Origin: Candidatus Lithacetigena glycinireducens
GTDB lineage: Bacteria; Coprothermobacterota; HKB111
NCBI GenBank assembly: GCA_018725485.1
Contig: QLUP01000055.1
Span: forward strand, 1-6,806
Direction: 5' to 3'
Length of the DNA stretch: 6,806 bases
Shown piece after piece: positions 899-6,806 of this stretch. The position numbers and the translations under genes are program-made. Below the pieces are notes generated by a model. That model saw only the letters and a program-made list of their open reading frames with translations, searched no databases and was not told the origin of the DNA. The number at the start of each line of letters is the position of its first letter. The first letter of the stretch is position 1.

Positions 899-1945
899 TC
901 AGACAACTATCTTGGAAATAATTACAACGATGCTTCCATCAAAACCTATATTTATAAGTGCAATGTTATGAGGTTTCTTCTCGATTTTAGCCTCAAAAAG
1001 AATATAATTCATGAGATCAAAAGCGCCACTGGCTCCGACAAAATTACCACACCTTTCAACGAAAGAATATGCTGGTTTATTGTCATATCCCAAAATTGAT
1101 CTTAACTCTACAGGCTCCAACGTATTATTCAAAATGAAACCATCCAAATCATCCATTGTTATTCCAGATTCTTTTAAGGCGATAAAAACACCTCTCCGTA
1201 TCGCAGCAGCCAATGCATCAACCGATTTATTTGCCCCTGCATTCAAAATGGAAGTGCCTATTATCTCAGCATAAATATTTGCTCCTCGTATTTCAGCGTG
1301 AGCCAGGGATTCTAACACTAATATCCCTGCCCCTTCTGTTAATGACATCTTTCTGAAAAAGTAATCAGAAAAATCAAACCACAAATAAGAAGCTGGTGAA
1401 AAAGTTTCTACACCTCCGCTAAGAATAACTTCTGCCTTGCCTCGTTTTATAAGTTCAAAGGAATAAGCTGCAGCATCAGCAGAAGAAACATTGCCTGAGT
1501 TTATTGTACTATGAAAACCTTTAAGTCCGAATACCAACGCTATCTGACCACTGGCAGCATTAGAGACCGTATTTCTGTATATGAGTGGATTTACTAATCT
1601 AGGGCCTTTCTTGATGAGTGTTTCTATGAACTTAGAACTTGATTCTGTGCAACCAAAAGCACTTCCTATAATGACACCTATGTTTTCGCTATCCTCTGCT
1701 GATAACAAAATTGAAGCATCCTCCAGCGCCAGTTTTGCCCCAAGAACAGCATACTTTGATATTCTGTCCATCCCTCTTGTATTAGCATTTTCTCTTGTTC
1801 CGCAGAATGAAGAAAAGTCAAACTCTTTAAGCTCTCTTTTACATTTTGTGAAATCTTGGCTGTTCAGCATTTTTGATAACGAATCCTTACCTATGCAGAA
1901 AGGAGCGGCTGGGCCAAGTCCTGTTATAACAACGCGGTTTTCCAT
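899..1945 (-). CDS. Catalytically degenerate beta-ketoacyl synthase homologue (KS-beta/chain-length-factor-like), short form
   Basis: Thiolase-fold KAS homologue of 348 residues, against about 400-410 for FabF. The start MENRVVITGLG is typical of the family and has AAAGGA (1959-1954) eight bases upstream. None of the catalytic residues is present: the nucleophile motif reads NSGNVSS with N152 where Cys belongs, the first His site is in ILNNTLEP (about N273), the second reads CGNFVGASG (N301 for His), and the conserved Lys before it is absent. The C-terminal NSFGFGGTN loop is reduced to NIGFDGS, the CRPFDxxRxG loop before EGAG is deleted, and the IPPTINYE segment is missing. The fold core survives (GVIIGSAFG at 90-98, SNAASGQIA, SGGVE, TEGAGILVLES). 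It directly follows an intact KAS with a 12-base gap, as KS-beta follows KS-alpha in type II polyketide operons. It is probably a non-condensing partner that shapes chain length or the active site; this is inference. It shares NPLxxxxTVSNAxAS and SGNxS motifs with the other dead KAS at 5418-6653. Confidence 0.85.
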   Translation of the reverse strand: MENRVVITGLGPAAPFCIGKDSLSKMLNSQDFTKCKRELKEFDFSSFCGTRENANTRGMDRISKYAVLGAKLALEDASILLSAEDSENIGVIIGSAFGCTESSSKFIETLIKKGPRLVNPLIYRNTVSNAASGQIALVFGLKGFHSTINSGNVSSADAAAYSFELIKRGKAEVILSGGVETFSPASYLWFDFSDYFFRKMSLTEGAGILVLESLAHAEIRGANIYAEIIGTSILNAGANKSVDALAAAIRRGVFIALKESGITMDDLDGFILNNTLEPVELRSILGYDNKPAYSFVERCGNFVGASGAFDLMNYILFEAKIEKKPHNIALINIGFDGSIVVIISKIVV

Positions 1946-1957
1946 GATTTTAATCCT

Positions 1958-3160
1958 TTAAAACCTCCTTACTATTACGGCTCCATTACTGCCTGCAAAA
2001 CCAGGGGATGTTGACATTACAGTATTAAGATAAGCATCCCTTGCAAAATTAGGCACAATATCGAGATCACATTCTGGGTCAGGGGTCTCATAATTTATCG
2101 TGGGAGGAATAAAATTATCTCTAATTGCCAGCAAACAAGCTATCAATTCAATGACTCCTGCTGCTCCAAGTGTATGTCCGGTAATTGGTTTTATGGAACT
2201 TATTGGCAACTTATAGGCATAATCACCGAATGTTAGTTTGATTGCGTTGCATTCCATTACATCATTATCCGGAGTTCCGGTGCCGTGGACATTTATATAA
2301 TCAATATCCTCTGGTCTTATTCCGGCATCTTTCAATGCAAATCTCATTGCCCTTGAAAGCCCTGCTCCACTTCTATCAGGTTTAGTGGCATGAAAGGCAT
2401 CGTTGCTCAAACCATAGCCAACTACTTCCCCGTATATCCTGGCATCTCTTTTTAATGCATGTTCCATTGATTCAAGGACAAGGATGCCAGCGCCCTCACC
2501 TAATACAAGTCCACTTCTATTTTTATCAAAGGGACGGCATTTATCTCTGGCTATTGACCTGAGGGAATAAAAGCCACTGAATGTAAAGATTGTTACTATG
2601 TCTGCAGCGCCTGCTATCATCAAATCTGCCTTCCCGTATCTTATAAGATCTATTGCATATCCGATAGCATTTGCTCCGGAGGCACAGGCGATGGAAACTG
2701 TTGAAATGGGTCCCCTTAAATCATATTGCTGTTTAATATTTTCCACGATCCGGTGAAATAAAAACTCTTTAACAAGGCGAGGCGTAATCTTATCCCATTC
2801 ATTATTTTCATAAAAATAGAGTAAATTTTCAAGAGAGCCTATACCCCCACAGTTAGTGCCAATGACCGCCCCGGCTTTTTCCTTTTCGATTTCCATCCCC
2901 TCTAACATGGCATCTTTTATTGCTTGATTTACTGCTTCCAGCGCAAAAAGTGAGACTCTATCAAATGGGCTGAAGTCTTTGCATGAAAAATTATCTATAA
3001 TTCCCGCCTCTTGAAAAGCAAATTGTGAAACATCAAAGGTTGTAATCTTTTTTATCCCGGATATCCCATTTTTCAAAGCCACAGAAAAGGCATTAATATC
3101 TCGGGCAACAGATGTGAGCAACCCAATCCCGGTTATGACAACTCGATTCCTACGCATCAT
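1958..3160 (-). CDS. Beta-ketoacyl-ACP synthase, FabF-type, intact triad (KS-alpha-like)
   Basis: Condensing enzyme of 400 residues, close to FabF length. It should perform decarboxylative Claisen condensation of an acyl chain with malonyl-ACP. Counting from the ATG at 3160, C159 lies in VSIACASG, H292 in NVHGTGTP, K324 in SSIKPITGH and H329 in the same motif, giving the full Cys-His-His triad plus the structural Lys. CRPFDKNRSG (208-217) and LGEGAGILVLE are also present. The C-terminal glycine loop reads SPGFAGSNG rather than NSFGFGGTN, a moderate departure. The ATG at 3160 overlaps the TGA of the upstream flavoenzyme in an ATGA arrangement (3160-3157), so coupled translation is likely; an in-frame ATG three residues earlier (3169) and another at 3157 are alternatives. 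Its run [17 protein letters not shown] matches the truncated KAS at the right edge, so the two are paralogues. The dead KAS that follows is a plausible heterodimer partner. Confidence 0.93.
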   Translation of the reverse strand: MMRRNRVVITGIGLLTSVARDINAFSVALKNGISGIKKITTFDVSQFAFQEAGIIDNFSCKDFSPFDRVSLFALEAVNQAIKDAMLEGMEIEKEKAGAVIGTNCGGIGSLENLLYFYENNEWDKITPRLVKEFLFHRIVENIKQQYDLRGPISTVSIACASGANAIGYAIDLIRYGKADLMIAGAADIVTIFTFSGFYSLRSIARDKCRPFDKNRSGLVLGEGAGILVLESMEHALKRDARIYGEVVGYGLSNDAFHATKPDRSGAGLSRAMRFALKDAGIRPEDIDYINVHGTGTPDNDVMECNAIKLTFGDYAYKLPISSIKPITGHTLGAAGVIELIACLLAIRDNFIPPTINYETPDPECDLDIVPNFARDAYLNTVMSTSPGFAGSNGAVIVRRF

Positions 3161-4659
3161 GTTCCACATTCATTGCGCAGATATTCATTTGCGATTTTAC
3201 TAGTCATAAAACCTGATATCATGGAGGCTGTCACACCCCCGCCAGGGACAGTCCAGTGACCTGTTAAAAAAAGCCCTTTAAAAGGAGTTTTGGGTTGAAG
3301 TCTTTTCATGCCGAATTGTGCCGGTGTATGCGACCATCCATAGCATGCACCTTTATAATTTAAAGCATATTTTTCGAGCGTTAACGGCGTGAGAAATGAT
3401 TTATGAACAATATTGGCAGAAACCTTTGGTATCAATCGTTCTAACTCACATATCATCTTTTCAGAAATAATATTACCTTCATCTGTCCAATTTCTATTGC
3501 AATCATAAGACGGTAATGTTATCAGATTAATTACATGTTTACCTTCCGGAGCCAATGAGGGATCGCTCAATGTCGGTATGTGCGCAATACAAAAACCACT
3601 CACATTGCCATTTATCATTCTTTGAACTTCAAATGTCAGTTCATCAGGATCCGCTGCAGGAAGGAGCAATGTCATATGAGAAAGGGGTAAATTATCAATA
3701 TCCAAATCAAGGCCAAGATTTACCACAAAGGCAGAAGTCGAGGACCTAAACAATCTCAATTTCTCAAGGTAATTATCTTGTAAATTTTTTTCGCCGATAA
3801 GGGAGAAAAATGTTTGATGTGCATCAATATTGGAAACTACACATGATGTTGAAATAACACTGCCATCTGAAAGTTCAATCCCGGTCACCATTCCTTTATC
3901 AATGGTAATCTTATTGACCCTTTCCCCTGCAATTAATGTTCCCCCTGAGTGGCAAAAAACTTTTGAAACTGCATCAGGCAATCTCTGTATACCGCCTATT
4001 GGCAAATACCCGCCTTCCTTAAAAAATGTCATTATCACATTTGAGATATAAAGGGCCGAAACCATGTCGGCAGTCATTCCTCCAAAAGTAATTGCTATAG
4101 ATGAGAGGATGAATTTTAGTCTTTTATTTGATATAAATTCATCGAGGAGTTCTCTATATGTTTTGTTGCCATATTTTCTTAGATGATTGCCCGATAGAAA
4201 CTGAAGACCGCTAATAAAACTGTCAGGCATAATGTATAAGTCTTTATAAATACCATCCATTGTTTGAAAAAGTCCTTTAATTCCCTCTTTATCCGACGGG
4301 AACATTACCGTTAAATTTTCTATCACTTCTATTAATTCTGAAGATATTTCAATAACTTCATCATCAATGCCGTGGAGTGTGAGGTATTTTTTTATTCTTA
4401 TAAATTCCAGACCTTTTTCTGCCCCGATTTCCTTGAGGATTTTATATATCTTCCCACCTTCACTACATCCAAGCAGTATCGATACTAAATCAAAAGTAAA
4501 CCCCTCCTTTTTAAAAGAATGACAATAACCGCCTACAAAGGGATTTTTCTCAACAATTAAAACTTTTACCCCATCTTTAGCGAGCAAGGCGCCGCAAGTA
4601 AGACCGGCTACCCCGGACCCAGTAATTATTACCTCATAATCACTATCTTTGGACTTCAA
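3157..4659 (-). CDS. FAD-dependent oxidoreductase, phytoene desaturase/CrtI-CrtISO-like
   Basis: Flavoprotein of 500 residues, typical of phytoene desaturase-like proteins (COG1233). The N-terminal Rossmann unit has VIITGSGVAGLTCGALLAKDG (GxGxxG at 14-19), E37 for the FAD ribose in LIVEKN, then the VGGYCHSF and GFTFD motifs typical of CrtI/CrtISO/RetSat relatives. The C-terminal FAD motif is GLFLTGHWTVPGGGVTASM at about 462-480. No signal peptide is visible. Known members desaturate, isomerise or saturate polyene chains; the substrate here is unknown, but its place between FabZ and a KAS suggests it acts on an acyl-ACP or acyl polyene rather than a carotenoid. The start is a TTG: AGGAGG lies eight bases before it, inside the end of the dehydratase gene, which it overlaps by 17 bases. 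No ATG or GTG start lies nearby in frame before the cofactor motif. The stop overlaps the next gene by four bases (ATGA). Family assignment is strong; the reaction is not known. Confidence 0.9.
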   Translation of the reverse strand: MKSKDSDYEVIITGSGVAGLTCGALLAKDGVKVLIVEKNPFVGGYCHSFKKEGFTFDLVSILLGCSEGGKIYKILKEIGAEKGLEFIRIKKYLTLHGIDDEVIEISSELIEVIENLTVMFPSDKEGIKGLFQTMDGIYKDLYIMPDSFISGLQFLSGNHLRKYGNKTYRELLDEFISNKRLKFILSSIAITFGGMTADMVSALYISNVIMTFFKEGGYLPIGGIQRLPDAVSKVFCHSGGTLIAGERVNKITIDKGMVTGIELSDGSVISTSCVVSNIDAHQTFFSLIGEKNLQDNYLEKLRLFRSSTSAFVVNLGLDLDIDNLPLSHMTLLLPAADPDELTFEVQRMINGNVSGFCIAHIPTLSDPSLAPEGKHVINLITLPSYDCNRNWTDEGNIISEKMICELERLIPKVSANIVHKSFLTPLTLEKYALNYKGACYGWSHTPAQFGMKRLQPKTPFKGLFLTGHWTVPGGGVTASMISGFMTSKIANEYLRNECGT

Positions 4660-5104
4660 CCTTACTGCCTCCTATCGTTAATTCCCCCAAGGCTACAATC
4701 TCATTATTTGCTTTCACTTCTCCTTTGATTCTGACAAACTCTCCAAATCTCTTTAAAATCATGACTTCAATTAACATTGTGTCTCCAGGGACAACAGGCT
4801 TTTTAAATTTCACTTTTTCCACGGTTAGGAGGTATTTCGGTTTCTTTAGAGTTCCAGCATCATTGTTTCCCGTTTGAGAGAAGGATAAAACAATTGCTGC
4901 AACCTGAGCTATGCACTCAATTATTAATACTCCCGGCATGATTGGTTCTTGCGGGAAATGTCCCTGAAAGAAGGATTCATTATAAGTTACACACTTAACA
5001 CCTACCCCTCCTTTACCTTCCTCTATTTCAAGCATTTTATCTACCAGCAAGATCGGGAATCTATGAGGTATTAGTTCTTTTATTTCTTTTATCCCTAATA
5101 TCAT
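4643..5104 (-). CDS. fabZ: 3-hydroxyacyl-ACP dehydratase, FabZ-type
   Basis: Hot-dog-fold dehydratase of 153 residues, the normal FabZ length. It should convert 3-hydroxyacyl-ACP to trans-2-enoyl-ACP. The signature is intact: IKELIPHRFPILLVDKML at 8-25, FFQGHFPQEPIMPGV with H49, and LIIECIAQ with E63. These match the known FabZ catalytic pair in both spacing and numbering. The later strands (KFKKPVVPGD, VRIKGEVKANNEIVALGEL) also fit. The ATG at 5104 has AAAGGGA (5118-5112) seven bases upstream. It lies 12 bases after the probable true end of the ACP gene (5117) and overlaps the flavoenzyme start by 17 bases. Together with the ketoreductase and no enoyl reductase in the window, it implies that double bonds can be left in the product. 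FabA-like isomerase activity cannot be excluded, but the sequence reads as FabZ. Confidence 0.95.
   Translation of the reverse strand: MILGIKEIKELIPHRFPILLVDKMLEIEEGKGGVGVKCVTYNESFFQGHFPQEPIMPGVLIIECIAQVAAIVLSFSQTGNNDAGTLKKPKYLLTVEKVKFKKPVVPGDTMLIEVMILKRFGEFVRIKGEVKANNEIVALGELTIGGSKVEVQR
4668..4673 (-). promoter_or_regulatory. Strong ribosome binding site fixing the TTG start of the flavoenzyme
   Basis: Read on the minus strand, a full AGGAGG lies eight bases upstream of TTG at 4659, within codons near the end of the dehydratase gene. It is the best Shine-Dalgarno match noted in the window and supports the non-ATG start. A strong site paired with a weak start codon may help balance expression against the neighbouring genes; that last point is inference. 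Confidence 0.65.
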
Positions 5105-5116
5105 TACCTTTTCCCT

Positions 5117-5399
5117 TTAAACTTTTAAACCTTCTTTTTCTACTAAGAGTTCTTTTATGAATTTAGCCAATGTATCGACCGAGTAAAAATTTTCCCTTAT
5201 GCCTTTTGGTCTCCTCTATCACGATCCCGAACTCTTCTTCTATTCCAACGACGAGCTCTAAAGATTCTACAGAGTCCAGCCCCAGACCTTCGCCGAAAAG
5301 CGGTTCATCGTCTTTTATCTCTTCAGGCGATACTTTCAATTCAAGCCTTCTTACCATCATTCTCTTGAGTCTCTTTTTTATCTCATTTTCTTCGAGCAT
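5117..5399 (-). CDS. Acyl carrier protein, with an apparent frameshift near residue 70
   Basis: Small acidic carrier that holds the growing acyl chain on phosphopantetheine. The ATG at 5399 has AAGGGAG (5412-5406) six bases upstream. The modified Ser is S43 in GLGLDSVESLELV, a DSV variant of the usual DSL, followed by the helix GIEEEFGIVI (52-61). Read in a single frame, the protein stops at 5163 after 78 residues with an untypical tail, FLLGRYIG. Reading one base further along from the run GGGAAAATTTTT (5196-5185) gives FYSVDTLAKFIKELLVEKEG and ends at TAA 5119-5117, which is exactly the last-helix sequence expected for an ACP (compare xxTVxDLVxYI). The repaired protein would have 93 residues and end 12 bases before the dehydratase, in line with the operon's spacing. 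The uninterrupted ORF covers only 5163-5399. One extra base in a homopolymer is the simplest cause: a sequencing error or a recent mutation. Confidence 0.88.
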
Positions 5400-5417
5400 C
5401 TTTTTCTCCCTTTTGAA

Positions 5418-6653
5418 TTAGTTTTCATATCTTTTCAGAAGAATAGAACTATTATTCACGCTAAAAGAACTTGAATTTACAAGGGCATAGCGTATTTCTT
5501 TATTGATTGGATGATTGGGAACATAATTTAAATCACAAAAAAGATCGGGATTTTCGTAGTTGATCGTGGGTGGTATTGTCCCTTCATTCAGAGTATAAAT
5601 GGTGCTGATGGCATTGAACACCCCACTGGATCCATATGTTTCACCTATCATTGATTTAATGCTGCTTGCAGGAATATGGTATGCCCGTGTTCCGAATAGG
5701 TCTTTTATTGCTTTTGATTCTGCTGCATCCAACTCCTTGCTTGAGTTTGCCGTTGAGACTATATATTCTATTTCATCTTTATTCAAACCCGCCTCTTTTA
5801 TAGCCTCCATCATTGCAAATGCAATACTACGTTCTTTAGAATGAGGGCTTGCTTTAAGCGAATCATAACTTGCGCCATCTCCTACTATTTCTGCCAGTAT
5901 CTTCGCATCCCTTTTTATCGCATGTTCTATGGTTTCAATAACAATTAATCCTACTCCTTCTCCGCAGATAATGCCATTTCTTTTTTTGTCAAAAGGTCTG
6001 CAGATTTCTTCTCCCCCATCTTTTGGAGAAAGGTGTCTAAGATGCATAAATGCCTCATGGATTAGTTTAAAATGCGTATCTACTCCTCCAGCAATGGCGA
6101 TGTCAATATAACCCTTCTTTAGATTCAGAATAGCTACTGAAATAGCCAATCCACCAGAAGCATTGCCAGAGGTTATGACATAGCTTGGTCCTTTTATTCC
6201 GTATTTTATGCTGATTTCACTTGCAGGGGCATTGGAGACCGTTTGCTGGAACAGCAGCGGGTTTGTAAGAGTAGTCCCCTTTTCCAGTAAAACAGAATAA
6301 AATTTCTCAGTGCACTCCAGAGCACAATGGCCGCTTCCAATAAATATGCCAATTTTGTGAGGCGATACCCTGTCAAGTTTCAGCCCTGCATCTTTTATTG
6401 CCATATCTGCTGCAATAAGCGTAAATTGAGAACTCTTTGACGCCCTGCAGAATCTGAATGAATCGTCATAATCCTCAGGCCTGTAGTCAGGCACCATTGC
6501 AGCCTTTTTTGATTTTAGATCGGTAACATCAAAGCATGTTATTTCTTTGATGCAGGACTTGCCTGTTTTCAGTCCATTCCAGAAGCAATCTTTCCCTATA
6601 CCAAAAGGTGATATGATGCCAATTCCTGTTACTACAATGCCTTTAGTTGACAT
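5418..6653 (-). CDS. Catalytically degenerate beta-ketoacyl synthase homologue (KS-beta/chain-length-factor-like), full length
   Basis: KAS-fold protein of 411 residues beginning [18 protein letters not shown]. The fold is complete: GIFIGSG (102-108), [15 protein letters not shown] (131-145), [10 protein letters not shown] (218-227), [10 protein letters not shown] and IPPTINYE. Catalysis looks lost: the nucleophile motif is ITSGNASGG with N164 for Cys, the first His site is in IVSTANSS (T301 by gapless alignment with the intact KAS at 1958-3160), and the second is SSIKSMIGE with E338 for His, while K333 remains. The C-terminal NSFGFGGTN loop is NSSSFSVNN. The ATG at 6653 lies inside the end of the preceding KAS gene (11-base overlap), as in coupled KS-alpha/KS-beta pairs. 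The in-frame TTG at 6695 would add 14 residues overlapping that gene and is not preferred. It is probably a heterodimer partner of the preceding KAS, perhaps governing chain length; that is inference. An ACP follows after 18 bases. Confidence 0.9.
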
Positions 6654-6806
6654 ATTTCTTAAATAATAATGCTGCGTTGTTCCCACCAAAACCAAAGGAG
6701 TTTGACAAAACTACATTCAAACTCTTTTTTTTGCTTGCATTCGGGACATAATCAAGGTCACATTCAGGGTCAGGAGTCTCATAATTAATTGTAGGAGGAA
6801 TAAAAT
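6643..6806 (-). CDS. Beta-ketoacyl-ACP synthase, C-terminal fragment (5' part outside window)
   Basis: Fifty-three codons plus TAA (6645-6643) are visible. The segment opens [18 protein letters not shown] and ends with [19 protein letters not shown]. These are the last strands of a FabF-type condensing enzyme, including the glycine-rich NSFGFGG loop that borders the active site. This loop is better preserved here than in any other KAS of the window, which suggests an active enzyme, but the Cys and His residues lie outside and were not seen. The opening 18 residues match the intact KAS at 1958-3160 exactly, although the codons differ at many third positions, so the two are diverged paralogues rather than a recent copy. 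The stop lies 11 bases inside the next gene, implying tight coupling with the dead KAS that follows. Confidence 0.9.

Follow-up and report, generated by a model that had tools for sequence, protein, structure and literature searches.

The window, i.e., the whole analysed stretch of 6,806 nucleotides from Candidatus Lithacetigena glycinireducens, was identical to the entire contig C156 (cut at both ends) and carried on its minus strand an ACP gene in which one net extra base separated the C-terminal helix from the frame of the carrier serine. As a member of the PF00550 family, this DNA is either broken or misread, and the lesion, whether real or artefactual, is an ordinary one-base change in an ordinary ACP gene; its cause is almost certainly either an error in the sequence or an ordinary mutation of very recent date, not a new mechanism.

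Frames of the ACP gene and its relatives

The frame-0 ORF (5163 to 5399, minus strand) started with the ATG at 5399 and was closed by an in-frame stop at 5165-5163 after 78 residues, its C-terminal end being KRHKGKFLLGRYIG. The 78-aa product contained the phosphopantetheine site LGLDS with the carrier serine in its DS motif and matched PF00550 at 36.4 bits (cut-off 20.8), and it covered this profile only up to position 51 of 67, the C-terminal helix (helix IV) being absent. The absent helix, FYSVDTLAKFIKELLVEKEGLKV, was encoded downstream in the +1 frame: this frame was stop-free from about 5218 to its own stop at 5119-5117 and was translated as ...GIRENFYSVDTLAKFIKELLVEKEGLKV, while its remainder (5117 to 5185, minus strand), YSVDTLAKFIKELLVEKEGLKV plus stop TAA, made up the ACP C-terminal helix together with the junction F. 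On balance the gene had one base too many, since 93 codons plus stop would occupy 282 bases and 283 were found. The original prediction had described a one-base ACP frameshift with its coordinates and peptide, and a shifted frame stopping at 5117, 12 bases before the dehydratase gene; the latter was confirmed by translation (the FabZ-like ATG was located at 5104), and the former was borne out by frame translation together with the profile scores below.

Relatives were gathered with tail-free queries (the first 63 ACP residues) from 386 genomes, with matches at E <= 1e-9 in 25 genomes including the source, and the set also took in matches obtained with the 78-residue frame-0 product as query. 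L199 and L200, in which a long insert precedes the tail, were left out of the 24 aligned relatives, as were the second-copy ACPs L190 and L011, the tails of all four not being alignable gap-free. All 24 aligned relatives encoded the tail in one single frame with no internal stop, and they displayed the C-terminal motif F-x-S-[VI]-x-x-L-A-x-[YFL]-[IV] or one close to it. With the profile of the collected relatives, frame 0 alone scored 87.9 bits, the off-frame tail alone 12.5 bits, and the read-through product 106.2 bits; moreover, the off-frame tail lay in exact register, the distance from the carrier serine to F being 28 residues, equal to that in L183-L185. No closer copy turned up in the phyla of G055 and G042, and nothing in the plasmid collection.

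To map the lesion, a single base was skipped at every position in turn and each resulting product was scored with the profile: between about 5214 and 5185 the scores stayed on a plateau, no more than 3.5 bits below the best, and they peaked at 5199-5194. The likeliest interval of the lesion was thus 5185 to 5214 (minus strand), which contained AAAA, GGG, AAAA, and TTTTT runs. The switch had previously been assigned to GGGAAAATTTTT (5196-5185); this site was located inside the plateau, as was the upstream AAAA run, and so precise a placement was not supported.

Origin of the extra base

The affected locus is best explained as an ordinary ACP gene, belonging to a type II polyketide/fatty-acid-like operon, that carries one net extra base at the loop preceding helix IV. 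Two origins would account for nearly all of the likelihood: (i) an indel error in the assembled sequence, or a consensus fault from a strain mixture, which might take about half of it; and (ii) a very recent frameshift mutation acquired by one lineage, which might take somewhat under half; recoding or other readings would share the small remainder. The source genome was an 83%-complete draft (1.24 Mb, 204 contigs). Apart from the ACP gene, all complete genes of the window were open. The off-frame ACP codons scored as coding under the codon usage of the source genome (log-odds +7.2 bits over 22 codons only); this preference being kept, no decay of the off-frame tail was visible.

A lesion survey was applied to 60 stretches of the source genome (632 kb) and 59 stretches of the same-genus genome G001 (801 kb; 93% complete), and orthologous DNA was obtained for 246 coding queries over 251 kb. 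No one-base coding indels were found among the 246 compared genes, and thus the assembly was not riddled with one-base errors; one other true frame-breaking lesion was recognized, in the pyruvate kinase gene. The raw split-alignment candidates between the two genomes turned out on inspection to be mostly intergenic or antisense effects, pyruvate kinase alone standing, and the remaining flags were taken for stretches lying immediately before start codons. A net loss of 10 bases close to the segment IDDGRVMLKV split the pyruvate kinase gene (L104, contig C183 of the source genome G000, 3804-5212), which was intact in G001 (L163, 2-700). Whatever their cause, a few frame-breaking lesions would be expected in each genome, and so the ACP lesion needs no special explanation. 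Neither the operon DNA nor the window's ACP had a copy in G001, and therefore the lesion could not be dated from that genome.

Programmed or leaky +1 frameshifting, either ribosomal at TTT-T or through RNA polymerase slippage at A4/T5, would yield a full-length ACP from the gene as it stands; it was unsupported and considered very improbable. The tail is retained, and TTT TTA at 5190-5185 would let the P-site Phe tRNA re-pair after a +1 slip, but several observations argue against such a slip: (i) the aligned relatives were all single-frame, which speaks against any conserved recoding of the ACP; (ii) the A-site codon TTA was the commonest Leu codon in the source genome (36.5 per thousand), so that the putative slip offered no hungry codon; (iii) the profile optimum for the frame switch lay upstream of the T run, though by only about 1.5 bits; and (iv) neither a prfB-like signal (SD plus stop) nor a rare A-site codon was seen in the sequence around the shift, so that both marks of a programmed +1 frameshift (conservation in orthologues, and such a signal or codon) were missing. 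As for RNA polymerase, the longest runs in the lesion interval were T5 and A4, under the homopolymer of at least 7 T reported to be needed for slippage of the E. coli enzyme (PMC6260861). A narrower version, in which the organism has a real, fixed extra base and regularly makes full-length ACP by lineage-specific +1 recoding near TTT-TTA, appeared slightly more improbable still. The original prediction had already placed a very recent lesion or a read error ahead of +1 slippage, and this ranking was favoured by the tests.

Frame-0 product and off-frame tail

If the lesion is real, ribosomes would make a 78-residue product with the carrier serine and without helix IV, probably folding poorly. 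AlphaFold2 was run with the same relatives as alignment input for both products: the read-through product had a mean pLDDT of 88.5 and a last helix at residues 74-91, while the frame-0 product had a mean pLDDT of 77.5 with about 60 over its last 18 residues (blocks 59-60). As these models suggest, the frame-0 product would not be a proper ACP. It is very unlikely to be a natural, functional short ACP variant, as might be proposed from the open ORF and the kept carrier serine: it had 35 residues from this serine to its end versus 44-50 in the 22 of 24 relatives that were measurable, the conserved tail was out of frame yet in exact register, and the predicted fold became less confident toward its end. 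The original prediction had named orthologues naturally ending near FLLGRYIG as evidence that would overturn it, and none of the aligned relatives ended in this way.

Although the off-frame tail was short (22 residues), it ranked first with a tail-only profile among 23,846 six-frame peptides of at least 15 aa from 632 kb of the source genome (E 2.5e-5; runner-up 0.44), at the sole expected place and spacing, and a chance resemblance, with a vanishingly small probability, is excluded on these sequence comparisons.

Operon, genome context, and known systems

The minus strand of the window displayed the following order: the end portion (6804-6643) of a ketosynthase-like gene truncated at the contig border; an intact ketosynthase-like gene of chain-length-factor type (5418 to 6695) without the active-site Cys (SGNASGG), upstream of the ACP gene; the ACP gene; an intact FabZ-like 3-hydroxyacyl-ACP dehydratase gene (4643 to 5104); a CrtI/carotenoid-isomerase-like FAD oxidoreductase gene (3157-4659); a ketosynthase-like gene with the catalytic Cys kept (ACASG; 1958-3169); a ketosynthase-like gene (899-1945) without it (SGNVSS) and with no Pfam C-terminal ketosynthase match; and an SDR reductase gene. 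This one contig thus harbored four ketosynthase-like genes within 899-6804: one with the catalytic Cys, two without it, and one cut by the contig end. The presence of a CrtI-like gene inside a KS-ACP-DH-KR operon recalls ladderane/polyunsaturated hydrocarbon clusters (PMC2649909). The same ACP-dehydratase order was found in L184 and L185, and in both the ACP stop overlapped the dehydratase start by 4 nt; this is close to the 12-base gap left by the off-frame stop, unlike the 58 bases left by the frame-0 stop, which favours the off-frame end.

The searched 4600-6800 part had no DNA match in G001, where the ketosynthase (5418-6653) was matched at 35% identity only, and thus the operon looks accessory or acquired. 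Misbinning of C156 was not supported by its GC content (0.390 versus a median of 0.388), but its tetranucleotide distance was rather high (rank 48 of 58), as expected of an accessory or acquired operon. The genome held two other stand-alone ACP genes, in C122 (beside fabF) and C129; the original claim of only one visible ACP accordingly held for the contig and not for the genome, and, given these two genes, the pathway need not stop even if the lesion is real. The anticipated failure of the operon was not established. The ends of C156 were linked to no other contig (end words absent from the 59 other stretches; right-end word in C156 only), and so the operon may include ACP genes beyond the one in view. 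Caution is needed, as annotation would call the ACP truncated and the operon defective, while the simplest reading is one stray base in a draft sequence; a real lesion would mean that an uncharacterised polyketide-like operon has only recently had its carrier knocked out.

The best family match of the window's ACP was NCBIfam PRK09184, yet at 48 bits, under the cut-off of 70. Three groups of known systems were compared: (i) stand-alone ACPs of type II PKS/aryl-polyene-like operons (L007 and L183-L185) had LGLDS in common with the window's ACP and 37-64% identity over the N-terminal 63 residues, several of them likewise adjoined KS/CLF, FabZ-like dehydratase, and SDR genes, and they ended in the same C-terminal motif, but this motif was in a shifted frame in the window, whose gene was split by one net base; (ii) the FASII-type clusters of anammox bacteria and Desulfotalea (PMC2649909), which combine divergent FabF paralogues with CrtI-like oxidoreductases and were compared by description, likewise contained an ACP and phytoene-desaturase-like FAD proteins besides several FabF-like paralogues, of which some had altered active sites, while, unlike them, the 6.8-kb contig had no radical SAM gene; and (iii) single-base indel lesions or errors of draft genomes and recent pseudogenes were alike in one net base, intact off-frame coding, and intact neighbours.
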